Position numbers and translations under genes: made by a program. 64,000 nt of DNA from Gordonia sputi NBRC 100414 (GTDB lineage: Bacteria > Actinomycetota > Actinomycetes > Mycobacteriales > Mycobacteriaceae): the NCBI RefSeq assembly GCF_000248055.1, contig NZ_BAFC01000045.1, forward strand, positions 62,001 to 126,000. Direction: 5' to 3'. Shown here in pieces: positions 26,023 through 44,747 of this stretch. How positions within the stretch are numbered: the first letter of the stretch is position 1; every line of letters begins with the position of its first letter. Below the pieces are notes generated by a model. The model was not told where the DNA came from and did not search any database. It saw nothing but the letters and a program-made list of their open reading frames with translations.

Positions 26023-26041
26023 CACTGTTAGGCTACCCTTA
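26023..26041. promoter_or_regulatory. Putative IdeR/DtxR iron box upstream of glycosyltransferase
   Basis: CACTGTTAGGCTACCCTTA matches 13 of 19 positions of the iron box TTAGGTTAGGCTAACCTAA, including the run GTTAGGCTA. It lies 33 bp before the ATG at 26075 and marks the left edge of the accessory cluster. Confidence 0.72.
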
Positions 26042-26074
26042 CGCGGAGTGATTCTGAGGGGAGCGCATCTCGCG

Positions 26075-27097
26075 ATGTATCAATCCGCCACAAGCCGGAC
26101 CCGACTGACGATGCACGACGTGTCGGTGTCTGTTGTCGTGCCGGTCTATCGCAGCGCCGCCTACATCGAGGCCTGTGTGCGCTCGGTACTCAACCAGCAG
26201 GCTCCGGTCGACGAGATCGTGCTCGTCGACGATCGCGGGGGTGACGATTCCATCGAACGAGCCGAAAAGGTGCTCGCGGCAGGCGAGGTCGCGTATCGGG
26301 TCGTGCGTATGCCACAGAACAGTGGCGTCGGGCCTGCACGCAACGCGGGACTCGCGGCGGCGTCGGGAAACGTCATCTGGTTCTTCGACAGCGACGACAT
26401 CGCCGACGCGGCGTTCACGACCAGAATGCTCGACGAACTACTCCGCAACGACGCGGATTTCGCCACGTGCACAACACGATTCGTCGACGAGATCGGGGTG
26501 CCGACGGGGGCGCTCACTCCGGTGCTGTCGGCCGGCGCACTCACGGGCGACGAGTACGCAGGCCTCTTGTTGCGCAGCAAGGCGCGGTCGTACGCCAGCG
26601 GAAAGCTGTTCCGCCGTGACGTTCTCGGCGACGATCCGTGGGGCACACGTCGGGCGTACGAGGATCTATCGGCCATCGCGCGGGTGGCGCTGGACTCGCG
26701 CACGGTGGCGACGGTGCCAGAGGCGTTGTACCGGTACCGACTTCGCGACGATTCGGTATCGCACCGCGTCACGTCCGACACACGCGCGATCTTCGAGATG
26801 GGTGACGAGGTGCTCGAGATGCTCGACACCGTTCCCGACACGAGGCAATGGCGTTCGACTGCACGATCTTTCGTGTACCGCGAGGTTCTGATCCCCGCGG
26901 CGCACATGGCGATGCGCGCAGAGCACGACGGTGGCGCAGGCCCGGTGACAGACGAACTGCTGCGCATCGCCCGTGCTCGCGTGTCGCGTCGGGATGTGCT
27001 GCCGCTGCTCGCCACGGGCGAGATACGCTCTGCCGTCTTCGCCGTCGCGATGCTGACCGCGCCGCAGCGCTACGCGAATATGCTGCGGCACAGGTGA
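26075..27097 (+). CDS. Family 2 glycosyltransferase
   Basis: A 340-residue GT-A fold transferase. The start at ATG 26075 is favoured by GAGGGGAG (26056-26063); GTG 26048 and ATG 26111 are alternatives. The N-terminal motif VSVVVPVYRSAAYIEACVRSVL, followed by EIVLVDD, is the GT2 nucleotide-sugar site, and FFDSDD near residue 105 supplies the DxD-type metal motif. No membrane helix, so it probably acts at the inner face of the membrane. An iron box lies directly upstream. It converges on the A-T-TE synthetase gene with a 4-bp gap. Donor and acceptor sugars cannot be inferred. Confidence 0.88.
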   Translation: MYQSATSRTRLTMHDVSVSVVVPVYRSAAYIEACVRSVLNQQAPVDEIVLVDDRGGDDSIERAEKVLAAGEVAYRVVRMPQNSGVGPARNAGLAAASGNVIWFFDSDDIADAAFTTRMLDELLRNDADFATCTTRFVDEIGVPTGALTPVLSAGALTGDEYAGLLLRSKARSYASGKLFRRDVLGDDPWGTRRAYEDLSAIARVALDSRTVATVPEALYRYRLRDDSVSHRVTSDTRAIFEMGDEVLEMLDTVPDTRQWRSTARSFVYREVLIPAAHMAMRAEHDGGAGPVTDELLRIARARVSRRDVLPLLATGEIRSAVFAVAMLTAPQRYANMLRHR

Positions 27098-27101
27098 TCT
27101 G

Positions 27102-29687
27102 TCAGGGCAGCGCGTCGAGGAAGTGCCCCACCACCTCGGTGATGTGCGGCTCGCGCACAATCGACATGTGATCGGCCTGAACCCGGGTGATCGTGATGTC
27201 GCCCGGGGTGAGCTGATCGGTCCAGACCCGCTCGTCGTGGTTGTTGTCCGCGCCGAGTACCACAAGCACTCGGCCGTGATACGGCGCGGGGCGGTGGAAT
27301 CGGCCGACGCGCCAACCGACCTGCTCCATGGCACGTGCCGACTCGACGGGCTGATCGGTCAAAAATCCGGCACGTAGCAACTGGATTCGGTTGCGCCACA
27401 ACTGTGATCGAGACAATCGCACGCCCGACAGTTGGGGACGCTGGTCGCTCTCGGCGGTCGCGGGAGTCTGCGCCGTCGAGCCGACAGCACGAGCTGTCTG
27501 CTGGGGGACGAAGGTGTCGAGTGTCATGACGAGCGCGACCTGCTCGCCCGCACGGAGGAGTCGACGAGCGACCTCGAGCGCGATCAATCCACCCAGTGAA
27601 TGACCAAGCAGCACATAGGGTCCGCTCGGTTGAAGGCGACGCAGATCGCGCAGATGCCTGCGTGCAGCCATCCCGACAGTCCAGTCGGGGAATCCGCGAT
27701 TCTCCAGGCCGTGCGGTTGGAATCCGTAGATCGATCCGATCCGTTCGTCGCGGGCGAGGTGGTCGGCGAGCGCGACAAACACCAGCGCCGACGCGCCAGC
27801 TCCCGCGAAGCAGAACACCGTCTGCCCGTTGCCGCTACGCAGCGGCACCGTCGTCGGAGCGAGTGAATCACCCTTACTGGCAACCGAATCTGGTCGTAGG
27901 CGTGCGTCGAGCGTGTGCGCCATCGTCGCGACGGTCGGTGCCGACGCGGCGTCGGCCTGGGTGAGTGCAACGCCGAGACGTCGGGTGAGGCCGACGAGAA
28001 TCTGGGCGACCGTCAGCGAGTCGGCGCCGAGTGCGTAGATGTTCTCGTCACGTCCGACCTCGTCGAGTCCGAGGGCCTCGGCCCAGATCTCCGCCACCGA
28101 TGTCTCGAGGTCGCCGACGGGTGGGTCGATGTGTCGGGTCGGTGCGGGCAGTGCGGCTCGGTCGATCTTGCCGCGCGCAGTTCTCGGGAGGGCAGCGAGT
28201 TCGACGACGTGTGCGGGAATCATCCACTCGGGCAGTCGTTCTCGCAGCCTCGTGCGGATCTCGGCTGCCGGAGGGGTGCGGCCCCCGGGGACAGGCGCGA
28301 CGTAGGCGAGCAGTTCGGTGCGGCCGGAATCGGGCTCCGACCGTGCGATGACCGCGGCTTCGGCGAGGTCGCCGTCGGACATGATCGCGCGGTGCACCTC
28401 CGCGGGTTCGACCAGATAGCCCCTGATCTTCACGGCGTCGTCGATGCGGCCGGTGAGAATGAGCGTGGTGCCGTCCCAGGTTCCGCGGTCGCCGGTGCGG
28501 AAGCTGAGCACGCCGTCGGTGTCGCGGGAGAAGCGGCCCTCGTCGGCGGCCGGATCGAGGTATCCGAGTGCGAGGTGGCGCGACGACACGACGACGCGAC
28601 CGTCGTCGGCGATGGTGACCGACTTGTGCGGGGCGAGAACACCTGCGGGAAGCGCACCGGGGGATACGTGTTCTCCCGCGCGGAGATCGAAGTAGGCCAG
28701 CGCCGACGTCTCCGACGATCCCACCCAGTTCGTCACCGTTGCCTCGGGAGCGTGTGACAGCGCGGCCAGCGCGACGTCGGACGTCAGTGCCTCGCCGGTG
28801 GTGATGATGCGGCGCAACGATGCCCACGCCGGGTGGCCGGTCGACTCGCGCGAGCTCGTCAGCGCACGCAGCAGTGCCGGAGTGAGAAAGGTGATCTCTG
28901 CGGCGCACTCGGCGAGTGCGTCGAGTATCGCGCCTGCGGTGCGGTCACGCGGGTCGACGGCGGTGATGTCGGCACCGTTGATCAGCGATCCGATCAAGAC
29001 GTTGAGTCCGGCACCGAAGCTGATCGGAAGACACAGCGCGACGCGACGTCCCGGGGTGATCGAGAATCCGGTGCGCATCAGCTCGGAATCGCAGAGCCAC
29101 ATGCCATTCGGGTGCAGCACGCCCTTGGGAGTGCCCGTCGAGCCGGATGTGAACTGGATGCTCGTGAGGTCATCGGGGTTGTCGAGACCCGTGGTTGTTC
29201 CGCCGCCTGCGGCGCCCTGGGTCGTGATCGCGGCGAGGTCGGTCACCGGAAGACCGTGGGCGGCAGCGACGGCGCGAGCGGCGTCGAGGTGCGCGGCGTC
29301 GGCGATCATGACATCGGCAGGGCGTCCGTGCGTCTTCAACTCGGCGAGGATCGTCGAGACACGTTCGGCCGGCAGGTGCGGGTCCAGGGCGACGATCGGA
29401 TGTCCGGAGAGAAACACGCCGAGAACCAGCGCGACCGCGTCGGGCGACAACCACACCTGCACGACAACCGGATTCGACGATCCACCGGCACGTGCGGTGA
29501 TCGACGCCGCGGCCGACGTGGCTCGCTCGACGAGTTGGCCGTACGTCAGGCTCTGCCCCGCCATACGGATGGCCGGACGGTCGGTGAAGCGTTGTGCGCC
29601 TGCGATGATCGCGGTGCGCACCGAGTGAACCTCGGCGGGGTCACCGGGGGCAGTGTCGTCGGGGGTGGCGTCGGTAGAAGTGGTCAT
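27102..29687 (-). CDS. Single-module A-T-TE nonribosomal peptide synthetase-like enzyme
   Basis: The 861-residue enzyme starts at ATG 29687, overlapping the flippase TGA (ATGA). The adenylation domain (about 20-515) shows FTSGSTGTPKGVLHPNG near residue 180, SSETSALAYF near residue 335, FRTGDRGTW near residue 395, IDDAVKIRGYLVEPAEVHR near residue 420 and the catalytic lysine in ARGKIDRAAL near residue 510. A carrier domain has LGADSLTVAQ near residue 552. A type I thioesterase (about 625-858) has GHSLGG, an Asp in TLDTF and the His in ADHMSIV. No condensation domain is present. Next to GriI/GriH genes the likely substrate is 3-amino-4-hydroxybenzoate or a derivative, released as an ester, amide or dimer; this is inference. 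Confidence 0.92.
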   Translation of the reverse strand: MTTSTDATPDDTAPGDPAEVHSVRTAIIAGAQRFTDRPAIRMAGQSLTYGQLVERATSAAASITARAGGSSNPVVVQVWLSPDAVALVLGVFLSGHPIVALDPHLPAERVSTILAELKTHGRPADVMIADAAHLDAARAVAAAHGLPVTDLAAITTQGAAGGGTTTGLDNPDDLTSIQFTSGSTGTPKGVLHPNGMWLCDSELMRTGFSITPGRRVALCLPISFGAGLNVLIGSLINGADITAVDPRDRTAGAILDALAECAAEITFLTPALLRALTSSRESTGHPAWASLRRIITTGEALTSDVALAALSHAPEATVTNWVGSSETSALAYFDLRAGEHVSPGALPAGVLAPHKSVTIADDGRVVVSSRHLALGYLDPAADEGRFSRDTDGVLSFRTGDRGTWDGTTLILTGRIDDAVKIRGYLVEPAEVHRAIMSDGDLAEAAVIARSEPDSGRTELLAYVAPVPGGRTPPAAEIRTRLRERLPEWMIPAHVVELAALPRTARGKIDRAALPAPTRHIDPPVGDLETSVAEIWAEALGLDEVGRDENIYALGADSLTVAQILVGLTRRLGVALTQADAASAPTVATMAHTLDARLRPDSVASKGDSLAPTTVPLRSGNGQTVFCFAGAGASALVFVALADHLARDERIGSIYGFQPHGLENRGFPDWTVGMAARRHLRDLRRLQPSGPYVLLGHSLGGLIALEVARRLLRAGEQVALVMTLDTFVPQQTARAVGSTAQTPATAESDQRPQLSGVRLSRSQLWRNRIQLLRAGFLTDQPVESARAMEQVGWRVGRFHRPAPYHGRVLVVLGADNNHDERVWTDQLTPGDITITRVQADHMSIVREPHITEVVGHFLDALP

Positions 29688-31000
29688 CTGACGGCTCCGG
29701 TGAACGATGCGAGTGTGGTCTTCGGATCGAGGGCTTGGCGGATCAGTCGGATACCGGGTACGAGGAGGAAGAGCACGACGGCGACGTCGGCCACCAGGTA
29801 GACGTAGGCGACGCCGATGATGCCCCATCGATCGGCCGCCGCGGCGATACCGCAGACGACGACCACGCCGAAGACGATCTGTGTCGCCACAGCGAGTTTC
29901 AGCTTGCGCTGTACCCGCGCGAGGCCGCCGTAGATCACCACGAACGCCACAGTCGGCAGGGTCAGCGCCATCAGGCGGATGAGATCTGTCCCCTCACGGG
30001 CGTACTGCGGGCCCATGATCGAGAGAATCCACGGTGCCAGCGCGATCAGCAGTAGGCAACCGACGACTGCCGCGCCGCCACACAGTGCGATGAAACGCAG
30101 TGTGGTTGCCCGCAAATCGACGTCGGGCTCCGCCGAGGCCGACACGAACGGCGCGCAGGTGGCGTTGAGCAGGATGGCCGCCGTGCTGATGACCAGCCAG
30201 CAGACCGAGAAGTACGCGTTCATCTCGGTGCCCAGCTGAGCCACGATGACCAGTGGAACAACGAGCGGCACAACCACTCCCACCGCTGTCATCGCGAGCG
30301 AGCCTGCGTAGAAGTGTGCGATCTCACCGCGCCCGGGAAGCGTTCCGGGGCCCGTCATCGCGCGCGCGGTAGGGCGTACGGCGCTCACTCCGATCCAGCA
30401 TGCGATGACAGCGGCGGGGATCACCCAGGCGGCGACGATGGCTGAACCCGACGCGAATGGGATCAGCAGCGCGACGAGTATCAGCTTGATTGTTGATTGC
30501 GTGACGTTCTTGAGCGCGACGGTGCGCGAGCGGCCGAGGCCGATCAGCAACTGGTCCTGCACGGCGAAAACGCCGAGTACCGCAACGATGACGGGGTACA
30601 GCCACGGTTCCGCCGACGAGGTGAACAACGCGTCGCGAGGGCCGAGTACGACGAAGCCGAGTCCGAACAGCACTGCTGTCACGATGATGACGGAGCGGCC
30701 GATCGTGATCAGGCGGTGCGCCTTGGACCCGGCGATCGGAAGGAACCGTTCGTACAGACTGCCGAGACTCAGATTCGACAGGGTCGCCATCAACGTCGCG
30801 GAGGTGATGATGGCCGACGCCCTGCCGACCTCCGCCGTCGAGTATCCGCGCGCCGCGATCGTCCAGAACACGAAACCCAGTGCGCCGGTGGCGACACTGG
30901 ACGTCATCACCGCGACGATGTTGATCCCGACGCCGGTGTTGTCGTCGCGGAAGAGGTTCAGGCGTCGAGGGCCCAGGCCCCGCTTCTGCGTGGTGGTCAC
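29684..31000 (-). CDS. Wzx-like polysaccharide flippase (MOP superfamily)
   Basis: GTG 31000 overlaps the stop of the monooxygenase gene (GTGA), giving 438 residues with about 12 membrane helices. The opening NIVAVMTSSVATGALGFVFW and the FxTxAxGYSTAEVGRASAI region resemble O-unit and teichuronate flippases of the oligosaccharidyl-lipid group. Such proteins move lipid-linked saccharides, and some relatives export peptides or small products. Lying between the aminobenzoate genes and the A-T-TE enzyme, it suggests the product, or a carrier-bound intermediate, is moved outward. Its end overlaps the next start by four bases. Confidence 0.87.
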   Translation of the reverse strand: MTTTQKRGLGPRRLNLFRDDNTGVGINIVAVMTSSVATGALGFVFWTIAARGYSTAEVGRASAIITSATLMATLSNLSLGSLYERFLPIAGSKAHRLITIGRSVIIVTAVLFGLGFVVLGPRDALFTSSAEPWLYPVIVAVLGVFAVQDQLLIGLGRSRTVALKNVTQSTIKLILVALLIPFASGSAIVAAWVIPAAVIACWIGVSAVRPTARAMTGPGTLPGRGEIAHFYAGSLAMTAVGVVVPLVVPLVIVAQLGTEMNAYFSVCWLVISTAAILLNATCAPFVSASAEPDVDLRATTLRFIALCGGAAVVGCLLLIALAPWILSIMGPQYAREGTDLIRLMALTLPTVAFVVIYGGLARVQRKLKLAVATQIVFGVVVVCGIAAAADRWGIIGVAYVYLVADVAVVLFLLVPGIRLIRQALDPKTTLASFTGAVR

Positions 31001-32148
31001 CGGGCAGAAGCGGCGTCGACCAGTCGCGTGCTGCGGTCGGTCGCCAGTAGCGGCAGCAAGAGCTCTGCGGTGATCTCGGCCTCGCGGGCCAGCGGCCACC
31101 CCGACAGAATCCAGATGTCGATGCCCGCGCGCTCCGCGACCGACGACATCGCCGCCGCCACATTCTCGGCGCTGCCGACGAAGTAGGTGCCGGTGCCCTT
31201 GCCCGCGATGTCGAACGGTGGCTCCGCGGCGGTCCACGTCGTCAGTCCCGCAGCCATGTTCGGTGCGAACTCCAGCAGTTCCCTGCCCGGAATCCGGCCC
31301 GCGCGCAGAGCGTCGATCCGGCCTTGAACCTGCGGGTTCTCGCTGGTGATCCCGTCGAGACCCGGGTAGCCGAAGCTGCGCAGATTGCGATCGGCGGTGG
31401 CCAGAACCGTCTCCGGTCGAGTGTGCGCGAGCTGTTCGGAGAAGCGTTCCCACGCTTGTTCTTCGGTCTCGCGGACGATCACGCTCGCGAGCACACCGAA
31501 ACGTAGCGATCGGCCCCGCTCGGCTGCGGCCGTCCGGACGCGGTCGAAAAGCGTTGTGAGAGAGCTGGGTTCCGACATGAACGACAGGTAGACGTCGAGG
31601 ACCTCCGCCGCGTGCGCGATGCCCTCGGTTGACGCACCGGTGCCCCAGACCTGAACGCCTCCCGGTTGCCGGGTGCCGGGGATTGCGGGCTTGTATCGCG
31701 GTCCGTACGAGAAGAATTCGCCCTGGAACGCCTCGGTGTCGTCGAGATAGAGACGCTTGACCTGGGTCCAGAACTCGGCCGACATCCGGTAGCGGTCGGC
31801 CTTCGACTCGAACCTGCCGTACCGGTGCAAGACCGGATCGGCGCCGTTGACCTGGTTGTAGATCAACCTACCGCCGGAGTACTGGTCGAACACCTGGGCT
31901 TCCTCGGCCATCAGCACCGGAGGCTTGACGCCGGGGTACTCGGGAATGAGGAAGCGAAGCTGTTCGGTGTCGCCGACGAGTGAAATCGCCTCGCGCGCAG
32001 TGGTCAGCGCGCCGTAGAAGCCGAGCCGGTCAAGGGTGCGGGCCTGCTGCCGGAGTGCGTCGAACGTCGGGGCAAAGCGGTGTTCGGGCTCCCACGGGAC
32101 GTCGCCGTCGGTGGGGTTGATGTACCACAGGACGTCGGGGCCACTCAT
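30997..32148 (-). CDS. LLM-class flavin-dependent monooxygenase (SsuD-like)
   Basis: A 383-residue bacterial luciferase-like protein from ATG 32148, overlapping the griH-like stop (ATGA). It resembles alkanesulfonate monooxygenase SsuD: the opening VLWYINPTDGD, ARTLDRLGFYGAL near residue 36, FDQYSGGRLIYNQVNG near residue 86, and VIVRETEEQAWERF near residue 225. Compared with SsuD it lacks about eight residues after DRLGFYGAL, where SsuD has part of its substrate pocket, so sulfonate use is doubtful. Reduced FMN or F420 would come from elsewhere. A role in oxidising the aminohydroxybenzoate unit is inference from the operon. Confidence 0.85.
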   Translation of the reverse strand: MSGPDVLWYINPTDGDVPWEPEHRFAPTFDALRQQARTLDRLGFYGALTTAREAISLVGDTEQLRFLIPEYPGVKPPVLMAEEAQVFDQYSGGRLIYNQVNGADPVLHRYGRFESKADRYRMSAEFWTQVKRLYLDDTEAFQGEFFSYGPRYKPAIPGTRQPGGVQVWGTGASTEGIAHAAEVLDVYLSFMSEPSSLTTLFDRVRTAAAERGRSLRFGVLASVIVRETEEQAWERFSEQLAHTRPETVLATADRNLRSFGYPGLDGITSENPQVQGRIDALRAGRIPGRELLEFAPNMAAGLTTWTAAEPPFDIAGKGTGTYFVGSAENVAAAMSSVAERAGIDIWILSGWPLAREAEITAELLLPLLATDRSTRLVDAASAR

Positions 32149-33338
32149 CGTTCGTCACAGAACTCGGTGATCGGCAATCCGACGTGACGTGATTCGGTAG
32201 GCGCGTAACCGAGAAGGCGATCGCCGGGCACCAGGTCGGTCACGTTGTTCACCGATCCGCCGGGGCCGAGGAGGCGCACATGCCAGTCGTCCTGTGCGAT
32301 CACGTTGATGGTGCGGCCGTCGGGTGCGGTCGCGCTGACCGAGATCAGCGGGCGGCGCTCGATCTTGACTCTCCCAATGCGCACCTCGCGGACGTCACCG
32401 TTGCTGCGCACCGCGAGGATCGGCTGTCCGGCAGCGAGTTCGCTGACGTAGCGCGTGCGGTTGTCGGGCACGAGAACGTAGGAGTGCACGGCACCGGCGT
32501 TCCACCGGAACGGACGGGTCGGCATGTACGGCAGCGGGTGGGTTTCGCTGCAGGACAGAAACATTCCGGTCGAGAACGAACCGATCAGACATCCCTCGTC
32601 CTGTGCGAGCAGCGAGCAGGTGTCGATGCATGCACGTTCGCCCATGCCGATGTGCTCGACCTTGGTGACGGTCAGCTCGGTGAGTTCGATGCGGTCGGCA
32701 GACGGGCGGATGACGTCGGCGAGCGTTGCGATGTCGTCGACGCTCTGCGGGGCGAGCAGCAGCCCGTCGGAGCCGTGTTCGAGCACCAGCTTCACGATCT
32801 CGGCGTCCTCGATGTCGTTGACGACGGTCACGGTGCGGCCGCCGGAGTTCTCCGCCGCTGCGATCACGATCTCGAGGGGGATCTTGGTGGGGTCGGTGAA
32901 GGTCAGCAGTGTCCAGGGAGCGCGCCGCACGGTCTCACAGGCGTCGCGCAGCGTATCTGCGTCGGAAACGACAACGTGCACAGCGGTTTCCGCACCCGGA
33001 GCGGCTTCTTCGGAGTCGCCGTGGGCAACCAACACGATGTCGGCCGAGATCTGGCCTTCTGAGATCTCATCGCTCGAGTGGCCCGGTGCGTAGATCCGAC
33101 GCACGGTGGGCGGCAGGCCGTCGAGGAGGTCGATGTCGGCGGAGATGATGCCGTCGATGCGCTGATGAATGGCCGCCTGCACCATGGCGTCGACGGTGCC
33201 CGCGGGAACTGTGCGTAGGTCGACCCAGGCGAAATGCTCACGGCCGGAATCCGACTGCGCTGCAGTGGTCGACGAACTGTCGCGATCGACGCCGAGGGGT
33301 GTGATGTCGTCGGTCACGATGTCAGTGCTGTTGCTCAT
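32145..33338 (-). CDS. GriH-type cyclase (3-dehydroquinate synthase II family) for 3-amino-4-hydroxybenzoate
   Basis: GriH-type proteins convert the GriI product into 3-amino-4-hydroxybenzoate by a manganese-dependent reaction that is known from grixazone synthesis in Streptomyces griseus. The 397-residue product starts at ATG 33338 after GAGGTAG. The family hallmark region is present: IGSFSTGMFLSCSETHPLPY near residue 250, PFRWNAGAVHSYVLVPDN near residue 275, and GRVKIERRPLISV near residue 325. The archaeal homologue (MJ1249) makes dehydroquinate instead, but canonical shikimate enzymes are expected in this organism and the gene sits next to a GriI homologue, so the aminobenzoate role is favoured. 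Confidence 0.87.
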   Translation of the reverse strand: MSNSTDIVTDDITPLGVDRDSSSTTAAQSDSGREHFAWVDLRTVPAGTVDAMVQAAIHQRIDGIISADIDLLDGLPPTVRRIYAPGHSSDEISEGQISADIVLVAHGDSEEAAPGAETAVHVVVSDADTLRDACETVRRAPWTLLTFTDPTKIPLEIVIAAAENSGGRTVTVVNDIEDAEIVKLVLEHGSDGLLLAPQSVDDIATLADVIRPSADRIELTELTVTKVEHIGMGERACIDTCSLLAQDEGCLIGSFSTGMFLSCSETHPLPYMPTRPFRWNAGAVHSYVLVPDNRTRYVSELAAGQPILAVRSNGDVREVRIGRVKIERRPLISVSATAPDGRTINVIAQDDWHVRLLGPGGSVNNVTDLVPGDRLLGYAPTESRHVGLPITEFCDER

Positions 33339-34284: not shown

Positions 34285-34289
34285 CTGCT

Positions 34290-37472: not shown

Positions 37473-39040
37473 TACTCGATGACACGTCGCGATTGCGTGG
37501 TGAAGGCGACGATCGTCGGCTTATCGGTCTCGCCGACCTTCCACTCGAGCCAACCGAGTTGCTCCGCTGTCGGGAAAGTGCCTCGCGTGTCGGCCAACTC
37601 GTAGGAGAGTGGATAGTCGAAATACGGATTGGCAAGTGTCAACGGGGCGTAGTTGTCGTTGATTCGTGCAGGCAGTCCCGCCCCGTACAGCATGATGATC
37701 CGCGTGCCGGGAGGTGCGTCGGCGGTGATGCGGTCGATCGCCTCGACCTGCGCCCTGGTCTCGACCACGGTCGGCCACAGCGCGAAATACGAGTAGGCGC
37801 CTGCCAGCGCCGCAGCGACGACAGCGAGTGCGCCCGCCCATGCGACGAGGGCGCGGCGTCGACCGGCACCGAAACCGTCAAGAGCCGCAACAATATGCGG
37901 TGCGACGAGCAGTCCGCAGCCGAACAGCGAGTACAGGTACACGCGGAAGATCGCCTCGCCGCCGTAGCTCTGGCCGAGAAGCAGCGCGAGAGGCGAGAAG
38001 GCGACGATCGCACACGCGATCACGTACGGCCGCTTGTGTTTCCAGCCCACCACCGCGGAGAGCGCGGCGAGCAGCAGCACGCCTGCCGACAGCGCTCGAC
38101 ATACGAGCGACGTGATCTCATTCGCGGGCACTCCGGCAGCGGTCACGTTGCTGGTTGCGTTGCTGACCGGATTGCCGCCGGACAGGATTCCGTACGGGGC
38201 AACGGCTTCGAAGTTGAGTGCCAGGTACGCACCCGTGATACCGATCATCGCCGCGACCGCCCACCACGGGCGCGCCTGACGGAAGATGACGAGCGCTACT
38301 GCCGCCGCAAGTGCCCAGAACGGTGTGAGTTGATGTGTGGGGACGATCGCGGCGAACGGGATGATGGCAAGAATGCCCGCCTGCCGGTGATGCCGTGAGG
38401 CGATCAGCATGGCGAGGAGTCCGTAGGCGATGACCAGGGTCCAGGCCTGCGGCGAGAAGTAGTCCTGCGCAACCCAGTTCACCATCTCCGCGCAGAAGGC
38501 CGCCGTGATCGCCACTCGAGTCGACGATCCGATCGTTCGGGCCGCGGAGTAGACGATGATCGCGATCAGCAGGTGAATCACGGGCGCGAAGACATGCGCC
38601 AGGGTCATCGGGTCGAGGCCGGTGACATCGGAGAACCAGGCCGTGGTGACGAAGAAAGCAGGCCACTGCGCGTAGATGTCGGTGCCGTTGGGCTGAATGA
38701 GGTCGTGTGCCAGCACGTAGCGTACGACGGCGATGTGCTTGTACGTCCATTCATAGAGCGGCACTTCGGTTCCGAGCCAGGTGGTGGCGCGCTCGACGAC
38801 GATCAGTGTGAGCAGGGCGGCCGTGGCAACGGGGACGCGCCGTCGGGCGATCGCGATCACGAACGCGACGGCGACGAGAACGACAGCCGGGATGAGAAGA
38901 GCTCCGGCGCCGGAGAACAGCAGTCCGAAGAAGCTGGCGTCCACGCCGGGCAACCCGATGCTCAGCGCGACGATCCACAGGATCAGTGCGACTGCGAGGA
39001 AGACCACCGATATGTCGAGGCCGATGCTGCGCAGCGACAT
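37112..39040 (-). CDS. Multi-spanning membrane protein, GT-C glycosyltransferase-like; 3' end uncertain
   Basis: From ATG 39040 the frame encodes up to 642 residues. About 12 membrane helices fill residues 5-450, with an early extracytoplasmic loop (ATTWLGTEVPLYEWTY near residue 80), and a soluble segment follows (residues 450-555, with GTRIIMLYGAGLPARINDNY). This layout fits GT-C enzymes or glycan polymerases that use lipid-linked sugars outside the cell. The last 90 residues, after QAQHRF, read through the palindrome at 37324-37365 and then antisense to the opposing glycosyltransferase, so the functional end is probably near 37366. It is last in a run of cotranscribed genes from 43364. Confidence 0.7.
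   Translation of the reverse strand: MSLRSIGLDISVVFLAVALILWIVALSIGLPGVDASFFGLLFSGAGALLIPAVVLVAVAFVIAIARRRVPVATAALLTLIVVERATTWLGTEVPLYEWTYKHIAVVRYVLAHDLIQPNGTDIYAQWPAFFVTTAWFSDVTGLDPMTLAHVFAPVIHLLIAIIVYSAARTIGSSTRVAITAAFCAEMVNWVAQDYFSPQAWTLVIAYGLLAMLIASRHHRQAGILAIIPFAAIVPTHQLTPFWALAAAVALVIFRQARPWWAVAAMIGITGAYLALNFEAVAPYGILSGGNPVSNATSNVTAAGVPANEITSLVCRALSAGVLLLAALSAVVGWKHKRPYVIACAIVAFSPLALLLGQSYGGEAIFRVYLYSLFGCGLLVAPHIVAALDGFGAGRRRALVAWAGALAVVAAALAGAYSYFALWPTVVETRAQVEAIDRITADAPPGTRIIMLYGAGLPARINDNYAPLTLANPYFDYPLSYELADTRGTFPTAEQLGWLEWKVGETDKPTIVAFTTQSRRVIEYYGEYRPGAPAEFEQIMRETPGWRTVCLTQAQHRFTRTKTGRSAERPVFVLPLSRTRSGGRSLARRRLRIMFQHKGVGILVRLLRPWIRQLSWEPTSLIDRPLRAIRTLMTVSISKPSPH
37324..37365. terminator. 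Perfect 42-bp palindrome, bidirectional intrinsic terminator
   Basis: Bases 37324-37344 are the exact reverse complement of 37345-37365, with a GC-rich core (CGGGGCGTTCC) flanked by AAAAA and TTTTT. As RNA this is a strong stem followed by a U-run in both directions, as expected between convergent genes. Unusually, both opposing frames stay open across it and encode the same peptide, TKTGRSAERPVFV. Confidence 0.85.
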
Positions 39041-39067: not shown

Positions 39068-39490
39068 TCACGAACGTAGCGGTGGAAACGATCGCGCCCG
39101 CACGTACCAGTAGATGCTGCTGGCCACCACGGCGAAAGTGCCGACGACGAGGATGCCCGTCGGATTCCATCGGTACGACCACATCGCACCGATGGCCACG
39201 ATAGTCGTGGCCGACATACTGAGCGTGACGACGGCAGCTGGCAGGAGTCTGCGGGGGACGTGTACCCACGTGGTGATCGCGGCACCGGGCCCGACGAATA
39301 CGAATGCTGCGACGAGCACTGCGCGCACGGGAGAGGGTAGCGGGATGAGCCCGAGGAGTCCGCATACCGCCGCGACGAGCGCGGCGTCGGCGAGCCGATA
39401 CGTGACTCGTTGTGGGTCAACGGTGTCGGGAGCCGAGGTCGGCGCTGGCGCGTTGTCTTTCGCGGTATGGGTCGGTGCGCTCGTTGTCAT
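39068..39490 (-). CDS. Small multi-span membrane protein
   Basis: A 140-residue protein from ATG 39490. A polar lead of about 30 residues is followed by four hydrophobic stretches (ADAALVAAVCGLLGLIPL; AVLVAAFVFVGPGAAITTWV; LLPAAVVTLSMSATTIVAIGA; GILVVGTFAVVASSIYWYV) and a short basic tail. Its ATG overlaps the expected TGA (39487) of the upstream glycosyltransferase once that gene's frameshift is corrected. The GT-C-like gene starts 27 bp downstream. It could be a partner subunit of that protein; I recognise no family. Confidence 0.72.
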   Translation of the reverse strand: MTTSAPTHTAKDNAPAPTSAPDTVDPQRVTYRLADAALVAAVCGLLGLIPLPSPVRAVLVAAFVFVGPGAAITTWVHVPRRLLPAAVVTLSMSATTIVAIGAMWSYRWNPTGILVVGTFAVVASSIYWYVRARSFPPLRS

Positions 39491-40808
39491 CGGATCGCAC
39501 CGGAATCGACGACCGCGCGGTCGCGTGCCGCGTGGAGCGGGGTGGCGTGACGACCTGCTCGCCGTCCGCGGGCGAGGGCCAACGGACCGCGCAGGACTGA
39601 GAACACCTCGACCGACCGACCGACGCCGAGATGTCGACGAGCACGTGATCGGGTGGACGGCAGACACCGCCGTACGCCGCCGAAGCACGGGACACGGCAC
39701 GGAAACGTTTGCGCAACACGGAGAACGCGAGTCGACGGTGCGCGCGGTCGAACGCGATCTTGGTCAGTACCGCGCCGAGTCCAGCTCCGTAGCCGCGCGC
39801 TTGGGAGAGCAGAGCCTCGTTGTCGCTGCGGTGACGGTGCCACACGATTGCCGCTGGCTCGGACACCAGGCTGTACCCGGCCTGCAGTACACGCAGGAAG
39901 ATGTCGAGATCCTCGCCGCCCATCGTCGTGGTTCCCGCGCCGAGAGCCTCGTCGAATCCGCCGAGGCGCACGATGCGATCCCGATCGACCGCGAAATTTG
40001 CTCCGGTGCCGTAGATCCCGACCTGATAGGGGAACAGCGGGACGTCGTCGGGCGGATCGAGCAGCGAGTAGCGTCGCGCGACGATGTTGTCGGCCCAGGA
40101 GACACGCCAGTCGAAGTACGCCTGTGCCGGCGTCCGCAACTCACCGCTCGGTACCAGTCCGCATACGCACGCGACGTCGTCAGCGCGCGCGAAACCCGCC
40201 AGCAGCCCTGTGATCCACCGCTGGTCGACGACGACGTCGTCGTCGGTGAACGCCACGATCTCGTGGGATGCGGCCAGCAGGCCGGTGTTTCGTGCTGCCG
40301 AGAGGCCAGGCGTCGGTTCTGTCACCAGCCGCACGCGGGGGTCGTCGCATTCGTCGACGACCCGCGCAGTTGCGTCTGTCGCAGGCGCGTTGTCGACGAC
40401 GATGATCTCGAGGTCGGGATGGTCCAGCAGCGTCAGTGATGCCAACGCCGAACGCAGATGTTCGGGACGCTCTCGGGTGCACACGACGACCGACACCGGC
40501 CTGCTCGGCGCATCGCCGTTGTCGCGTGTCTCGTCGCACGGCGGGATGGTGACGGTGGCGAGCCCGTTCTCGAGCGGGGATTCCGTGAAGCGCACCAGCA
40601 CAACGGATTCGCGAATGAGCAGTCGCGCGCGCGTATAGCCGTCGGCGCCGAGAGGGCGGCAGGTGACGGTAATGTCGGCCGAGCGGTCCGCGAGGTCGAG
40701 TTCGGCGGTGTCGAGTTGACCCACCCAGGTCGCGCCGGGCCACTCGGGTCCTCCGGTCGCGGGCATGACCGGCCGCAGTTCGATTGGCGCCGTGAATAGT
40801 TCGGTCAT
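39417..40808 (-). CDS. Family 2 glycosyltransferase with N-terminal extra domain; frame shifts at a tetranucleotide tract
   Basis: ATG 40808 overlaps the GH16 stop (ATGA). Residues 1-110 form an extra beta-rich domain (DTAELDLADRSADITV); the GT2 domain follows, with VSVVVCTRERPEHLRSAL near residue 115, FTDDDVVVD near residue 192, and GGEDLDIFLRVLQAGY near residue 275. After DISASVG (near residue 395) the frame leaves the family pattern and continues to 39417. Inserting one more CGAC unit in the tract at 39609-39624 restores SVEVFSVLRGPLALARGRR and a stop at 39487 that overlaps the next ATG, as elsewhere in this operon. So the gene is either off by slippage, a sequencing error, or naturally altered at its last 45 residues. 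Confidence 0.83.
   Translation of the reverse strand: MTELFTAPIELRPVMPATGGPEWPGATWVGQLDTAELDLADRSADITVTCRPLGADGYTRARLLIRESVVLVRFTESPLENGLATVTIPPCDETRDNGDAPSRPVSVVVCTRERPEHLRSALASLTLLDHPDLEIIVVDNAPATDATARVVDECDDPRVRLVTEPTPGLSAARNTGLLAASHEIVAFTDDDVVVDQRWITGLLAGFARADDVACVCGLVPSGELRTPAQAYFDWRVSWADNIVARRYSLLDPPDDVPLFPYQVGIYGTGANFAVDRDRIVRLGGFDEALGAGTTTMGGEDLDIFLRVLQAGYSLVSEPAAIVWHRHRSDNEALLSQARGYGAGLGAVLTKIAFDRAHRRLAFSVLRKRFRAVSRASAAYGGVCRPPDHVLVDISASVGRSRCSQSCAVRWPSPADGEQVVTPPRSTRHATARSSIPVRSDDNERTDPYRERQRASADLGSRHR
39609..39624 (-). repeat. Tetranucleotide repeat (CGAC)4 inside glycosyltransferase gene
   Basis: Four perfect CGAC copies lie in the 3' part of the glycosyltransferase gene. With four copies the gene ends out of frame; five copies, or two, would rejoin the family-like C-terminus and the operon's ATGA junction. 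Tracts of this type can change length by slipped-strand replication. Confidence 0.8.
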
Positions 40809-41629
40809 GTGCCGGAGCTCCGTTCGGTTGTGTTCACCCGAATCCAATCGACAGTCATCGTGGCGGGGAAAGTGGTGTCGTCCGACGCGGGGCCGGGCCA
40901 ATCGCCTCCGACGGCGACGTTGAGCAGGACATGGAAAGGTGCGTCGAAGACCCATTGGGCGTCGGGCGCGAGGTCGGCCGGTGTGACCGAGAACAGTTCT
41001 CGGTCGTCGATTCCGGTGACGATGCGCCCCGGCGTCTTGCGCATCCAGTACGTGCGAAACGTGTTGGCGAGTTCGAAGGGTCCCGGTCCGGATGCCGACA
41101 CCGTCTGTCCACGTGTGCTGGAGTCCTGCGGCGCGTGGATTCCGGTGTGGTAATCCGCTGCGGTGTTGAGGGTTTCGATCACGTCGATCTCTCCGGCACG
41201 CGGCCAGCCCACCTGCTCGAGGGAATCCCCGAGCAGCCAGAACGCGGGATGGAGTCCCTGGCCCGATGGCATCGAGATACGTGCGGAGATCGTGCCGTAG
41301 CGCAGCGAGTACTTGCCGCGGGTCGTGAGGCGTGCCGATGTGATGGTGTCGCCGTCACGTCGCGCGGTGATCAGTAGATGTCCTTTGCCGTCGAGCCTCA
41401 CGTTGCGCGTGCTGTCGGTGTAGACCTGCTGTTCGCCGTTGCCCCACCCTCCGCCGCCGATCTCGGCAGTCCACACACCCGTGACAGGGCCTGCGGGACC
41501 GTCGAATTCGTCGGAGACGACGTCGGCGTTGGCCGTCGTTGCGGGAGGTTCTGCGTCCGTGCGCGGGACGGTGCAGGCCGCGAGTGAGATGGCTAGTACT
41601 CCGATGAGCGCGCACGAGGCGAGCTTCAT
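40805..41629 (-). CDS. GH16-family glycoside hydrolase lipoprotein
   Basis: A 274-residue secreted lipoprotein: basic start MKLASCALIGVLAISLAACT with lipobox LAAC (lipid on Cys19). The concanavalin-like GH16 domain has the catalytic motif GEIDVIE near residue 143, with both glutamates of E-x-D-x-x-E in place, and flanking GLHPAFWLLG and HVLLNVAVGGDWPG. GH16 enzymes cut or transfer beta-1,3/1,4-glucans and galactans. Placed among glycosyltransferases and a flippase gene, it probably trims or transglycosylates the cluster's glycan outside the membrane. Both ends overlap neighbours by four bases. Confidence 0.9.
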   Translation of the reverse strand: MKLASCALIGVLAISLAACTVPRTDAEPPATTANADVVSDEFDGPAGPVTGVWTAEIGGGGWGNGEQQVYTDSTRNVRLDGKGHLLITARRDGDTITSARLTTRGKYSLRYGTISARISMPSGQGLHPAFWLLGDSLEQVGWPRAGEIDVIETLNTAADYHTGIHAPQDSSTRGQTVSASGPGPFELANTFRTYWMRKTPGRIVTGIDDRELFSVTPADLAPDAQWVFDAPFHVLLNVAVGGDWPGPASDDTTFPATMTVDWIRVNTTERSSGT

Positions 41630-42342
41630 CCGGTGGTCACCGGACCCGGCTGTGAGACTTCTGGCCCGGCGACTTCTTGCTCGGCGACTGCGGGTTCGGT
41701 GTCGGAGGTGTGGTCGTCGGCAACGCGGACCCGACCGCTCGACACTCCCGCCACCACGACGGCGATCAGGATCGGGTAGATGATCAGTCGCTGGGTGCCA
41801 CCCGACCCGAACCAGCCGGTCAAACCTGTTGCGTAAGCGATGAATGCGACGGTGGCGACCGTTCCGGCGAGGGCTGTGAACGCACGAACCCCAGCCGCCA
41901 GCCGTGTCGAACCGGAGAACCCGATCATCGCGAGCCCCACGGATGCGAGCACGAAGAAGGTGGTCAGCGCTGCCGAATGCTGTTGGTAATCGGTCTTCTC
42001 GGTGATGATTCCGGTGACGGCCAGTCCGACTCCCGCGATGGCCAGCGCGCCCGCGTGCGGGAACGTGACGATCCGACGCACCGCCCAGCTCGACGCCACC
42101 ACCGCGATGGCCAGGCCGGTGAGAACGAAGCTGACATTCATCACCGGGTAGAGCGCACTGCACGGCCAACGTCCCTGTGGGCCACAGAATTCGAGGCCGA
42201 GTGGACCGATCTGGTCTGTCTGGTAGGAGTACTGTCCACGCCACGTCGCGGAGACCACCCATTCCGCGGCGAAGAACTGGAGCACGACGAGCGCGGCGAC
42301 CAGCGTGATGCGCGGGTCGATCAGGAGTCGGATGACTTTCAT
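41626..42342 (-). CDS. DUF998 integral membrane protein
   Basis: A 238-residue protein from ATG 42342 (ATGA overlap with the upstream glycosyltransferase). Six or seven hydrophobic helices with the family pattern: a first helix near residues 13-31, YPVMNVSFVLTG near residue 65, a loop with EKTDYQQHSAALTTFF near residue 113, then LIIYPILIAVVVAGV. The C-terminus is an acidic/Pro tail (DTEPAVAEQEVAGPEV). DUF998 proteins have no settled function; here it belongs to a glycan export or assembly operon. Confidence 0.82.
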   Translation of the reverse strand: MKVIRLLIDPRITLVAALVVLQFFAAEWVVSATWRGQYSYQTDQIGPLGLEFCGPQGRWPCSALYPVMNVSFVLTGLAIAVVASSWAVRRIVTFPHAGALAIAGVGLAVTGIITEKTDYQQHSAALTTFFVLASVGLAMIGFSGSTRLAAGVRAFTALAGTVATVAFIAYATGLTGWFGSGGTQRLIIYPILIAVVVAGVSSGRVRVADDHTSDTEPAVAEQEVAGPEVSQPGPVTTG

Positions 42343-43364
42343 GGGATGGTGCTGACCTCTCGGGGAGACTCATGGGCAGTGGCGGGCGCGCCACGACCAA
42401 TCGATTTCAGGGTTCCGGCGCCGAACCCCGCGCATGTGACGAACAGGCCCGCGATGAGTGCCGCGACCCGCGTCGGGGTGCGACGTGAACGCCACGCGCC
42501 CTGGGGCAGTGTGCGGGTCGCGTATCCGCGCTCGGTGGAAAGTGCTGTGTCGGTTGAGGTCAGGCGCGACAGAGTCGCCTTGGAGCGGCCCTCTTCGTAA
42601 CAGCGGCGCGTGAAGTAGGAGAACCGGGTGCGGTCGGGTGACACCGCATGTCGGACACGGAAATCCGTGTCGCGCAGGATCGTCGAATTCGGGAACTGTT
42701 GGCGCAGAGCGATTCCCATGAGCGTCTCTTCGCATCCGGAGGGAAGATCGGCGTGCCGACCGAGTGCCGTCGAGAAGCCTCCGACGGCCTCGAGCCGATC
42801 GCGTCGTACCGCCATCGCCGCACCGATCGGATTGCGGATCTGTGCACCGTGTCCCGGTAGGCCGCGATAGTCGCAGCCGACGACCCAGCCGAACTCCTCG
42901 GGGAACCATCTCGGCCGGGGAGCAAGCCACTGGGCATCGACTGCACCGCCCAGGGCGCTGATGTCGTCGCCGGCGAATCGCGATCGAACGGCGGCGAACG
43001 ATCCGGGTACCGGCTCGGCGTCGTCGTCGATGAAGACCAAGACGTCACCACGTGCAGTGCGAGTGCCGGTGTTACGAGCCTCGGACAGTCCTCGCGGTCC
43101 CGCTGATGCGACGACGGTGACCGCGGACTGGTCAGTGGAGAACTGCGCTGTCAGTGAGGTGAGCAGGTCGTCGTTGTGATCGACCACGACGATGAGCTCG
43201 TCGACGTCGAGGAGTTGTGCGCGTGTCGCGGCGATGGCGCGCGTGAGGAGCGCTGCGCGGTCGGAGGTGTAGCAGCAGATGATCGCCGACAGGGTGGGCG
43301 CAGTGGACTGCTGATGCGGGTGCGACAACTTCGACTCCGGACGGCATGCGGGACGGCGGACCAC
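42339..43364 (-). CDS. Family 2 glycosyltransferase
   Basis: A 341-residue GT2 enzyme from GTG 43364. The fold motifs are LSAIICCYTSDRAALL near residue 26, ELIVVVDHNDD near residue 56, and FIDDDAEPVPGSF near residue 111 (DxD). WVVGCDYRGLPG and GCEETLMGIALRQQFP match transferases that extend polysaccharide chains. A weak hydrophobic segment near the C-terminus (VAALIAGLFVTCAGFGAG) may dip into the membrane. No ribosome site is seen and the start lies inside an iron box, so the transcript may be leaderless. It heads the glycan operon running down to 37.3 kb. Confidence 0.85.
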   Translation of the reverse strand: MVRRPACRPESKLSHPHQQSTAPTLSAIICCYTSDRAALLTRAIAATRAQLLDVDELIVVVDHNDDLLTSLTAQFSTDQSAVTVVASAGPRGLSEARNTGTRTARGDVLVFIDDDAEPVPGSFAAVRSRFAGDDISALGGAVDAQWLAPRPRWFPEEFGWVVGCDYRGLPGHGAQIRNPIGAAMAVRRDRLEAVGGFSTALGRHADLPSGCEETLMGIALRQQFPNSTILRDTDFRVRHAVSPDRTRFSYFTRRCYEEGRSKATLSRLTSTDTALSTERGYATRTLPQGAWRSRRTPTRVAALIAGLFVTCAGFGAGTLKSIGRGAPATAHESPREVSTIP

Positions 43365-43379
43365 GGTAGCCTAACCCAT
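43361..43379. promoter_or_regulatory. Putative IdeR/DtxR iron box overlapping the glycosyltransferase start
   Basis: The minus strand reads ATGGGTTAGGCTACCGTGG, matching 13 of 19 positions of TTAGGTTAGGCTAACCTAA with an intact GGTTAGGCTA core. It covers the GTG start at 43364 and is the proximal member of a tandem pair. Confidence 0.68.
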
Positions 43380-43384
43380 AAGGA

Positions 43385-43403
43385 TTAGGGAAGGCTAACC
43401 AAA
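43385..43403. promoter_or_regulatory. Strong IdeR/DtxR iron box of the glycan operon
   Basis: TTAGGGAAGGCTAACCAAA matches 16 of 19 positions of TTAGGTTAGGCTAACCTAA, the best of the six boxes. It lies 21 bp before the glycosyltransferase start and its centre is 24 bp from that of the proximal box, a spacing seen when two DtxR dimers bind one promoter. Confidence 0.85.
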
Positions 43404-43425
43404 CTAGTCGGATGTGATCGACGTA

Positions 43426-44715
43426 CTACCGCGGTGCGGGGATCGTCTCTCCGAGCACCGCCAACGCCTGTGCCGGTACGTCCGCGAGTGCGGCTGCCAC
43501 AGCGTCGGCTGGAAAGACGTCGTCGCGGAACGTCGCTGTGAGACACAGACTTCCGGCGACCGATGCACTCGTGACGGTGATCCCGGTGGGTGATGGAGGC
43601 TCGGCGATGCCGATGACCAATGCCTTCTCGGTGTCGGAGAAGTTCCACCGCTGATGACGTCCCGGTACGACGCCGCCCGAGGAGTGCAGTAGGTCGATCG
43701 CCGCCTCGCCCGCGGGCGCCCACGACTGTTGCCCGGTCGCCGCCACCCGTCTTCGGCGCTGTCCCCTCGCGGCAGCTCTCGACTTTGCCGCTGTCACAAG
43801 GAGATTCGCGACGGGGCGACCCATCGACGACGCCGCTGACAATTCTGCCTGCAGTGCGTCGGGCGCTGTGTCGGGGAGTACGACGAAGTCGAGGCCCGCC
43901 GCGAAGTTCGCCATGGTGCCCACGGATCGGGGGAGATATGCCCTGGCATCGAAGGGAAGTGTGACCATCGGATTCACGCGCAGCCCGGCGGCGGTCAGTG
44001 CGCGCACGAGCGCGACGGTGTGCAGCGTGAACATTCCGACGTCCGCGCCGCGCGACGTCCGGGCCGCGCGCATCAACTCGACGACGTCGCGTGGTGTTCG
44101 CGCGAACACGCTTGTCGCCTGTCGCGGCGGATCGACCGGTATGAGGGTTGACGGTTGCGGTGCTCGGTAATCGCGCGACCGATGCATGTGGGCCAGCGCG
44201 CGCAGCCGCCGTGGATTCGACAGCACAGCTGCACCCGCGATCGCGAGGGCACGCGTCGGCGTCCACCAGCGCGGAGATGCCGCGATGGTTTCGGGGATCT
44301 CCTCGCTGAGCAGAACGTCGACGATGGTGTTGAGGAGCGTGGTGTCGCCGAGGCCGTGGTCGTAGTCGATTGCCAGGTAGCGGCCACTGAGTACGACGCG
44401 CAGATGCCGAGGTGGAAGCGCCGCCACTACGTCGAGCAACGCCAGGGGATCGTCGGTCGGTGGCGCGGTGTGGACGGCGTCGGCCAACCTGTCGGGCGCG
44501 TATGACCAGGCGCGACGATCGTGTGATGGTACGAGCCCGATGCGTGTGTGGGGGCCACGCTTCGCGAAGCGGATGAGCCGTTGCGACGCGCAGTTCGCGT
44601 CCGGGAGATCGAGCGGACCGACGACGACGGCGCTGCGATGGCCACTGTGATGCGCGTCGATGGCCGCGCCGGTGAAAGTGCGCGACGCGTCGGGGGAAGT
44701 GGCTGAACTACTCAT
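43426..44715 (-). CDS. Condensation-superfamily acyltransferase (PapA/WES-like HxxxD)
   Basis: A 429-residue protein from ATG 44715 after AGGAAG. The H-x-x-x-D catalytic motif appears as YDHGLGDT near residue 118; VNPMVTLPFDARAYLPRS and SMGRPVANLLVTAAKSR in the second half, and RWNFSDTEKALVIG near residue 355, fit the two-lobed chloramphenicol-acetyltransferase fold of condensation domains and polyketide-associated acyltransferases. It is a free-standing enzyme, so it could move an acyl or aryl unit from the A-T-TE carrier onto a sugar or amine; this is inference. An iron box lies 14 bp upstream, and a separate iron-boxed promoter follows it. Confidence 0.72.
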   Translation of the reverse strand: MSSSATSPDASRTFTGAAIDAHHSGHRSAVVVGPLDLPDANCASQRLIRFAKRGPHTRIGLVPSHDRRAWSYAPDRLADAVHTAPPTDDPLALLDVVAALPPRHLRVVLSGRYLAIDYDHGLGDTTLLNTIVDVLLSEEIPETIAASPRWWTPTRALAIAGAAVLSNPRRLRALAHMHRSRDYRAPQPSTLIPVDPPRQATSVFARTPRDVVELMRAARTSRGADVGMFTLHTVALVRALTAAGLRVNPMVTLPFDARAYLPRSVGTMANFAAGLDFVVLPDTAPDALQAELSAASSMGRPVANLLVTAAKSRAAARGQRRRRVAATGQQSWAPAGEAAIDLLHSSGGVVPGRHQRWNFSDTEKALVIGIAEPPSPTGITVTSASVAGSLCLTATFRDDVFPADAVAAALADVPAQALAVLGETIPAPR

Positions 44716-44728
44716 CTTCCTGATGACT

Positions 44729-44747
44729 TTAACAAAGGCTTACCTAA
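44729..44747. promoter_or_regulatory. Putative IdeR/DtxR iron box upstream of the acyltransferase
   Basis: TTAACAAAGGCTTACCTAA matches 14 of 19 positions of TTAGGTTAGGCTAACCTAA. It lies 14 bp before ATG 44715 and marks the right edge of the cluster, 29 bp from the Pho box of the divergent pstS gene. Confidence 0.75.

Follow-up and report, generated by a model that had tools for sequence, protein, structure and literature searches.

A 19-kb block in the genome of Gordonia sputi NBRC 100414 (positions 26,023 to 44,747 of the 64,000-base stretch of contig NZ_BAFC01000045.1 analysed here, hereafter the window) carries boxes resembling those of the iron regulator IdeR/DtxR at its promoters, together with genes for a GriI-type aldolase and a GriH-type 3-amino-4-hydroxybenzoate (3,4-AHBA) synthase. 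Comparison with related loci ties these two genes to a specialised member of the p-hydroxybenzoate hydroxylase (PHBH) family and to a luciferase-like monooxygenase (LLM). In the soil bacterium Gordonia and some of its relatives, the block probably builds an unusual iron-binding aromatic compound, which may be attached to a scaffold of sugar or peptide. The contig that contains the window is 183 kb long and belongs to a draft genome of 4.95 Mb (157 contigs). An earlier note, written from the letters of the window alone, had read the block as an iron-starvation-induced, AHBA-derived aryl glycoconjugate or chelator.

Iron boxes in the window and in related loci

The 19-base sequence TTAGGTTAGGCTAACCTAA was taken by us as the consensus of the IdeR/DtxR box. 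Counting matches to it over the whole window returned exactly six positions with at least 13 of 19 bases, all at promoters of the block and none in the other 45 kb; these are the same six sites, with 13 to 16 matching bases, that the earlier note had picked out by eye. First-order Markov simulations of the block gave a mean of 0.13 such positions, with a maximum of two in 300 runs, and permuted-palindrome controls gave a mean of 0.61, none of the 500 reaching six. As a background, 400 kb of the same genome were sampled in 20 stretches and found to hold 13 positions at this threshold. Given that the stretches came from the contig of the window and three others holding box matches, this sampling works against a claim of enrichment.

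The sites were also scored with a matrix trained on 56 sites from loci L007 to L024; the window and the two loci most closely related to it, L005 and L006, were left out. The boxes at 43385, 34266, 44729 and 36377 (18.8 to 25.8) score near the siderophore-gene boxes of the genome (20.8 to 22.4). The 43361 box, at 9.4, is by itself no better than background, since 15 background positions and one elsewhere in the window (8896, 9.6) score at least as high. Hence the box observation is firm for four of the six sites, moderate for 26023 and weak for 43361.

Five background sites score above 20, and four of these lie at siderophore-type genes of contig C136 (147966, 175417, 175467 and 179934), where the neighbours are an adenylating enzyme, an isochorismatase, a nonribosomal peptide synthetase (NRPS) and an ornithine/lysine N-hydroxylase; the first two would presumably belong to a 2,3-dihydroxybenzoate (2,3-DHB) pathway. 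Furthermore, the genome encodes an IdeR orthologue (L125) of 227 amino acids (E 9.6e-107 to IdeR 1fx7). Could the boxes simply be ordinary promoter -10 elements that resemble IdeR sites? By eye, several contain TAGGCT or TAGCCT, which is compatible with a -10 hexamer; however, the clean remainder of the window, the permuted and Markov controls, and the siderophore-type company of four of the five strongest background sites make this extremely improbable. It should also be noted that positions 145000 to 181500 of C136 (L138, L139, L004) form a separate boxed region of siderophore type, with a periplasmic binding protein nearby too, and that one of the strongest boxes sampled (contig C47, position 79786; L001, L143; matrix score 24.0) sits between two genes without an assigned identity.

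A search with GriH returned 80 loci out of 396 candidates. Twenty of these (L005 to L024) form a near group from Gordonia, Rhodococcus and Mycolicibacterium/Mycobacterium; the other 60 are more distant and come mostly from Streptomyces and its relatives, two of them bearing the titles uncultured Corynebacteriales (L041) and Rhodococcus rhodnii (L047). In a quick tree, the window and the 20 Mycobacteriales loci occupy one side of a branch with an SH-aLRT support of 100%, and the window's GriH is 89% identical to that of G. aichiensis and 88% to that of G. otitidis.

Boxes are present in all 20 near loci, and any box at all in 5 of the 60 more distant ones. After merging, the 20 loci hold 60 sites, 58 of which fall -120 to 300 bases ahead of the start of a called gene (starts in the window and in related loci being approximate), with one inside a gene and one elsewhere; such gene-start stretches take up 30% of the bases, and a binomial test of this placement treats as independent sites whose loci share ancestry. 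In 200 permuted controls, a number of positions as high as that observed in the 20 loci came up once. In many related loci, the boxed promoters include those of the glycosyltransferase genes, of the genes for the flippase and the adenylation-thiolation-thioesterase (A-T-TE) synthetase, and of the counterparts of the gene at 43426-44715 (43426-type genes). Taken together with the IdeR orthologue and the gene linkage described below, these boxes lead us to infer that IdeR exerts iron control over the block and that the product derives from AHBA, both strongly supported by comparative genomics and both anticipated by the earlier note.

The core gene set

Block proteins were scanned with Pfam and with curated family models, GriI and the glycosyltransferase at 36486..37472 with Pfam only. 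The scans recovered most of the gene list that had been read from the open reading frames: GriI, GriH, A-T-TE, PHBH, LLM, an arylamine N-acetyltransferase (NAT), four glycosyltransferases and a GH16 protein with a lipobox (Table 1). The aldolase adjoins a ring-closing enzyme of the 3-dehydroquinate (DHQ) synthase II family, which is the GriI/GriH arrangement. The latter enzyme scores 479.6 on the general DHQ synthase II model (cut-off 375) and no more than 249 on the other models of that family.

In 59 Gordonia genomes, where duplicate-looking assemblies (G326/G342, G276/G333, G315/G332 and G314/G335) were entered once each, GriH, the specialised PHBH and LLM were each found in the identical 16 genomes, even when the genes are scattered. 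The PHBH count is a lower bound, as are those for A-T-TE and for a second genus, the best first-look candidates having been scored; for LLM in Gordonia nearly all such candidates were scored. In the second genus, 5 of the 248 sampled genomes have GriH and 4 have LLM, all among those 5. PHBH lies near GriH in 16 of the 20 near loci, and the genomes of the other four carry it outside the fetched locus, in the case of L021 on the same contig at a distance of about 12 kb.

Gordonia copies detached from the GriH locus carry boxes as well. Three genomes (G276/G333, G315/G332 and G316) have a second locus at the pstS site with a 43426-type protein, PHBH, NAT and LLM, boxed in all three, and in G236, G317 and G326 the LLM gene is separated from GriH and lies next to or close to pstS, its start being boxed in all three. 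As judged from this linkage, the unit is GriI, GriH, the specialised PHBH and LLM.

In several Gordonia genomes (L009, L023, L192, L196, L198, L218, L219, L221 and L236-L239), genes with iron boxes have repeatedly landed in the stretch beside pstS, which often extends to an endonuclease/phosphatase-family gene. In four mycobacterial genomes (L254, L255, L256 and L257), an LLM gene with no box near it directly follows the same gene pair, which is efp and nusB in L254. An identity of the LLM as the alkanesulfonate monooxygenase SsuD was rejected: its score on TIGR03565 is 162.9 (cut-off 518.2), and the sulfonate residues, which we take to be R226 and H228, look replaced in the alignment.

The specialised hydroxylase

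The PHBH-family protein of the block misses the PobA equivalog model (TIGR02360, 450.8 under a cut-off of 538.7). Aligned with 1d7l, from which the residue numbers were counted, it keeps Y201, S212, R214, Y222, P293, T294, N300 and Y385. Residue 199 is Gly and residue 200 is Met in 17 of 17 rows, and residue 210 is Val or Leu; apart from Leu199Gly and position 210, the pocket is canonical. In seven genomes, all cluster copies have Gly-Met, each with a box within about 2 kb. Ordinary PobA copies, of which seven were compared (six from genomes with a cluster copy as well), all have Leu199-Ile200 and show no box in the 3.5 to 4.2 kb fetched around them. None of the 60 more distant GriH loci has a PHBH match above 60 bits.

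The roles assigned to the kept residues are partly our own assumption and partly drawn from excerpts of PMC10770758 and PMC10466732. The excerpts of published work also provide precedents for residue 199. A natural protocatechuate 5-hydroxylase has this position changed to Val (PMC10770758); engineered PobA with Val, Asn or Arg at 199, combined with changes of Tyr385, accepts a 3-substituted substrate and hydroxylates it at C5 (PMC10770758, PMC9063093); and L199 has been modelled within 4 Å of 4-aminobenzoate (PMC10466732). Given these precedents, and since 3,4-AHBA resembles protocatechuate in shape but carries an amine at C3, the specialised PHBH would convert 3,4-AHBA to 3-amino-4,5-dihydroxybenzoate, a catechol ligand.

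Hydroxylation could instead occur at C2, as in ptmB1-B2-B3, with 3-amino-2,4-dihydroxybenzoate (ADHBA, a salicylate-type ligand) as the product and a PtmC-like NAT as the acylating enzyme. PMC6006322 reports that, when ptmB1-B3 were expressed together with ptmA3 and ptmU4 in four Streptomyces hosts, one made ADHBA; PMC11213898 describes PtmC as a NAT that couples ADHBA, and GriI, GriH, PHBH and NAT are grouped in several related loci. However, the residues that hold and activate 4-hydroxybenzoate beside its hydroxyl are kept in the block enzyme (Y201, S212, R214, Y222, P293 and Y385), and residue 199 is the very position altered in C5-hydroxylating variants. We thus regard hydroxylation at C2 as quite unlikely.

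The A-T-TE, glycan and membrane genes

Set against a Wzx-type polysaccharide cluster, the remaining genes of the block include four glycosyltransferases and a flippase that matches its family just under the cut-off; a polymerase was not identified. The large membrane protein matched no family, a search against solved structures gave nothing useful, and its predicted model is of low confidence (pLDDT 51, pTM 0.41). The protein at 43426-44715, previously called an acyltransferase, matches no family in the model scans and no relevant solved structure. The C-terminal tails of the large membrane protein and of the convergent glycosyltransferase both contain RTKTGRSAERPVFV, hinting at an inverted repeat.

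In the A domain of the A-T-TE synthetase, whose pocket positions were placed by eye with an assumed numbering, Gly stands in place of the Asp235 of amino-acid-activating domains. There are two classes of pocket, and neither gave a readable substrate. A second class of A-T-TE lies near boxed NRPS-type genes (L159, L161, L162, L200 and L019), always beside a PF00756 esterase-family protein, which in L019 looks mycolyltransferase-like by eye.

The scans of the block proteins revealed neither a condensation domain nor a siderophore importer. The G. sihwensis locus (L019) combines GriI, GriH, PHBH, LLM, NAT and A-T-TE with NRPS and ABC-2 transporter genes and the esterase-family protein, all in boxed operons; its NRPS has at least three condensation and two adenylation domains and runs past the edge of the locus. 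This arrangement favours a siderophore-type product.

Table 1. Features of the block, with positions in the window.
Feature	Position	Strand	Basis
IdeR/DtxR-type box upstream of GT1 (moderate)	26023..26041	+	13/19; matrix 13.7
Glycosyltransferase family 2 (GT1)	26111..27097	+	PF00535 E 6e-28 on frame 26048-27097
A-T-TE synthetase, no condensation domain	27102..29687	-	Pfam AMP-binding, PP-binding, Thioesterase
Flippase-like membrane protein	29684..31000	-	PF01943 27.3 bits, cut-off 28.2, on 29684-31453
LLM, GriH partner	30997..32148	-	PF00296 E 8e-29
GriH-type 3,4-AHBA synthase (DHQ synthase II family)	32145..33338	-	PF01959 E 6e-104
GriI-type aldolase	33382..34200	-	PF01791 E 1e-39; found in 80/80 GriH loci
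IdeR/DtxR-type box between NAT and GriI (strong)	34266..34284	-	14/19; matrix 20.7
NAT, frame interrupted	34290..35115	+	PF00797 on 34290-34805; rest in another frame
Specialised PHBH-family hydroxylase (Gly199-Met200), start uncertain	35073..36302	-	NF006091 491.6 bits, cut-off 351
IdeR/DtxR-type box upstream of PHBH (strong)	36377..36395	-	14/19; matrix 18.8
Glycosyltransferase family 2, C-terminal end uncertain	36486..37472	+	PF00535 E 4e-21; homologues in related loci
Large multipass membrane protein, main part	37112..39040	-	in 7/21 (window + 20 loci); low-confidence helical model
Large membrane protein, N-terminal part, start approximate	39068..39490	-	in-frame stop separates it from main part
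Glycosyltransferase family 2 (GT2)	39417..40808	-	PF00535 E 3e-24 on 39417-40955
GH16 lipoprotein	40805..41629	-	PF00722 E 2e-12 on 40805-42400; lipobox LAAC
DUF998 membrane protein	41626..42342	-	PF06197 31.6 bits, cut-off 30
Glycosyltransferase family 2 (GT3)	42339..43364	-	PF00535 E 1e-16
Weak box, tandem with 43385 box	43361..43379	-	13/19; matrix 9.4
IdeR/DtxR-type box upstream of GT3 (strongest)	43385..43403	+	16/19; matrix 25.8
Protein without family match (putative acyltransferase, HGLGD motif)	43426..44715	-	in 8/21 (window + 20 loci)
IdeR/DtxR-type box between 43426-44715 gene and pstS (strong)	44729..44747	+	14/19; matrix 19.8

Proposed pathway

Sequence comparison supports the IdeR orthologue, the conservation of the boxes, the obligate gene linkage and the change in the PHBH pocket. 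From these we infer the following scheme, with its iron control, the enzymatic steps in the host and their regiochemistry, the reactions of LLM and of the acyltransferases, the joining to a scaffold and the binding of iron; as a whole it is moderately likely. In iron-replete cells, Fe(II)-IdeR would repress the block, and iron starvation would release it. GriI would join aspartate semialdehyde and dihydroxyacetone phosphate, GriH would close the ring to give 3,4-AHBA, and the specialised PHBH, with its Leu199Gly pocket, would hydroxylate C5 to give the aminocatechol. A later intermediate would be oxidised by LLM, and acylation would be carried out by NAT and/or the 43426-44715 protein. The aryl unit would then be coupled to a scaffold from the co-regulated A-T-TE/flippase/glycosyltransferase module (from an NRPS in G. 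sihwensis), and the coupled product would be exported to bind iron. A chelator, one of the two products first suggested, is plausible, with the added detail that the specialised PHBH should give an aminocatechol. It is doubtful that the scheme extends to a wall-tethered siderophore of iron-starved Gordonia, Rhodococcus and mycobacteria, in which 3-amino-4,5-dihydroxybenzoate, as a new catechol unit derived from C3 and C4 compounds of central metabolism and not from chorismate, would be loaded by the A-T-TE on a lipid-linked glycan and flipped to the cell surface.

Several observations weigh against this scheme. GriH scores 421 bits on the curated BagC/FevH model, under its cut-off of 750, and the clade of window-type GriH sits on a long branch of about 1.05. 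Tyr385 is kept in the block PHBH and changed in the published residue-199 variants of PobA, which hence do not give the effect of Gly199 alone. In five mycobacterial genomes, no LLM gene has a box within 1.5 kb (0/5). The NAT frame, single in L005, L010, L019 and L023, is broken in the window, and the large membrane protein, one frame of 721 codons in G. aichiensis (L005), is split there by an in-frame stop; these breaks may be either real or errors of the draft. Neither an iron importer nor a siderophore-binding protein nor a ferric reductase turned up in the scans of the block proteins. Ferroverdins, which are AHBA-derived iron complexes, are described in the excerpt of PMC9221444 as a response to iron overload. 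Finally, the pocket of the A domain is nearly the same in GriH-positive and GriH-negative genomes, and the A-T-TE may therefore not use the AHBA product. An argument for selection of that product by the pocket was dropped for the same reason. The A-T-TE may activate another acid, with the aryl unit as acceptor, or the two products may be unjoined.

The last of these possibilities amounts to two separate iron-regulated systems at one site, one for an envelope glycan with the A-T-TE and the other for a small molecule derived from AHBA, which we hold to be rather unlikely. Apart from the near-constant pocket, each half is found without the other. In G329, G288 and G330, the glycosyltransferase, membrane-protein, flippase and A-T-TE genes are kept and boxes precede the flippase/A-T-TE pair, yet at the thresholds applied these genomes hold no GriH, PHBH or LLM at all; a 43426-type gene and the neighbouring pstS are seen in G329 and G288, and in G202 and G270 the module is truncated or altered. 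Conversely, L012, L017, L023 and L009 have PHBH-GriI-GriH (with LLM in L023 and L009) and no A-T-TE/flippase/glycosyltransferase operon in the locus, although L009 retains one glycosyltransferase and a 43426-type gene and L023 a NAT. Against separate systems, the genomes of these four loci hold an A-T-TE elsewhere, and in the window the A-T-TE, flippase, LLM and GriH genes are joined by overlaps of 4 bases each. Furthermore, some A-T-TE is found in 16 of 16 GriH-positive and 12 of 43 GriH-negative Gordonia genomes (Fisher p 2.8e-7), part of this count being the paralogue beside boxed NRPS genes. As for the aryl glycoconjugate of the earlier note, its glycan/A-T-TE module is indeed boxed, but the conjugate itself is unproven, since the module is found without GriH, the core without the module, and the pocket hardly changes.

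The product might also be made under iron starvation without serving as a chelator, for example as an antibiotic, a pigment or a redox agent. Antibiotics are among the other 3,4-AHBA products in the excerpt of PMC6692506, ahbamycins and grixazone are named as such products in that of PMC10179220, and the block is without a recognised importer among its scanned proteins. Nevertheless, PMC9221444 describes the ferroverdins as iron complexes of nitroso-hydroxybenzoate type, an aminocatechol would bind iron, and the G. sihwensis locus resembles a siderophore cluster, which together leave a non-chelating product unlikely. The nitroso route itself, raised earlier by analogy with ferroverdin, was rejected for the block: neither a tyrosinase-type o-aminophenol oxidase nor a copper chaperone was found among its scanned proteins.

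Relation to known systems

The block shares GriI and GriH homologues with the grixazone, ferroverdin and bagremycin clusters of Streptomyces (griI-griH, fevI-fevH and bagB-bagC). Identity to the 60 more distant loci, which may or may not include these named clusters, is 49-55% for GriH and 42-50% for GriI. The 3,4-AHBA cluster in PMC6692506 has regulators of the SARP and LuxR types together with an oxidase and a copper chaperone. Unlike the Streptomyces AHBA clusters, the block has iron boxes, PHBH and LLM, and an o-aminophenol oxidase was not found among its scanned proteins. With respect to the platensimycin cassette, we take PtmB1 and PtmB2 to be GriI/GriH-like and PtmB3 to be PHBH-like. 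This cassette (ptmB1-ptmB2-ptmB3 with ptmC) likewise pairs genes for an aminodihydroxybenzoate with an acylating NAT, according to the excerpts of PMC6006322 and PMC11213898; the block differs in its iron boxes and its obligate LLM. Residue 199 is also changed in the clade F PobA XaPobA, for which the excerpt of PMC10770758 gives V199, W201, M210 and F385, whereas the block PHBH has G199 and M200 and keeps Y201 and Y385.

A further parallel in logic is with the IdeR/DtxR-regulated catecholate and NRPS siderophore clusters of actinobacteria, which likewise have boxes and an activated aromatic acid, and the same genome has boxes at its own 2,3-DHB-type, NRPS and N-hydroxylase genes. As a rule, the aromatic acid of a catecholate siderophore derives from isochorismate (2,3-DHB) or from dehydroshikimate (3,4-DHB). 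In the block, by contrast, the aromatic acid would come from GriI/GriH and not from isochorismate, and condensation domains were found in L019 but not in the scanned block proteins. Among the literature matches listed, no paper describes an AHBA pathway under iron control in Gordonia, Rhodococcus or mycobacteria, in keeping with the earlier note, whose author knew of no system with this gene set.

The most interesting part of the block is the iron-boxed four-gene aromatic pathway, rather than the glycoconjugate. The signature of GriI, GriH, Gly199-PHBH and LLM can be used to find the pathway in genomes. If the scheme holds, an orphan PHBH paralogue would gain a testable role, a module of envelope-glycan type would be tied to iron starvation, and an IdeR-controlled GriI/GriH route to an aminocatechol would add, in mycolic-acid bacteria, a third source to the two known for aromatic ligands of iron.

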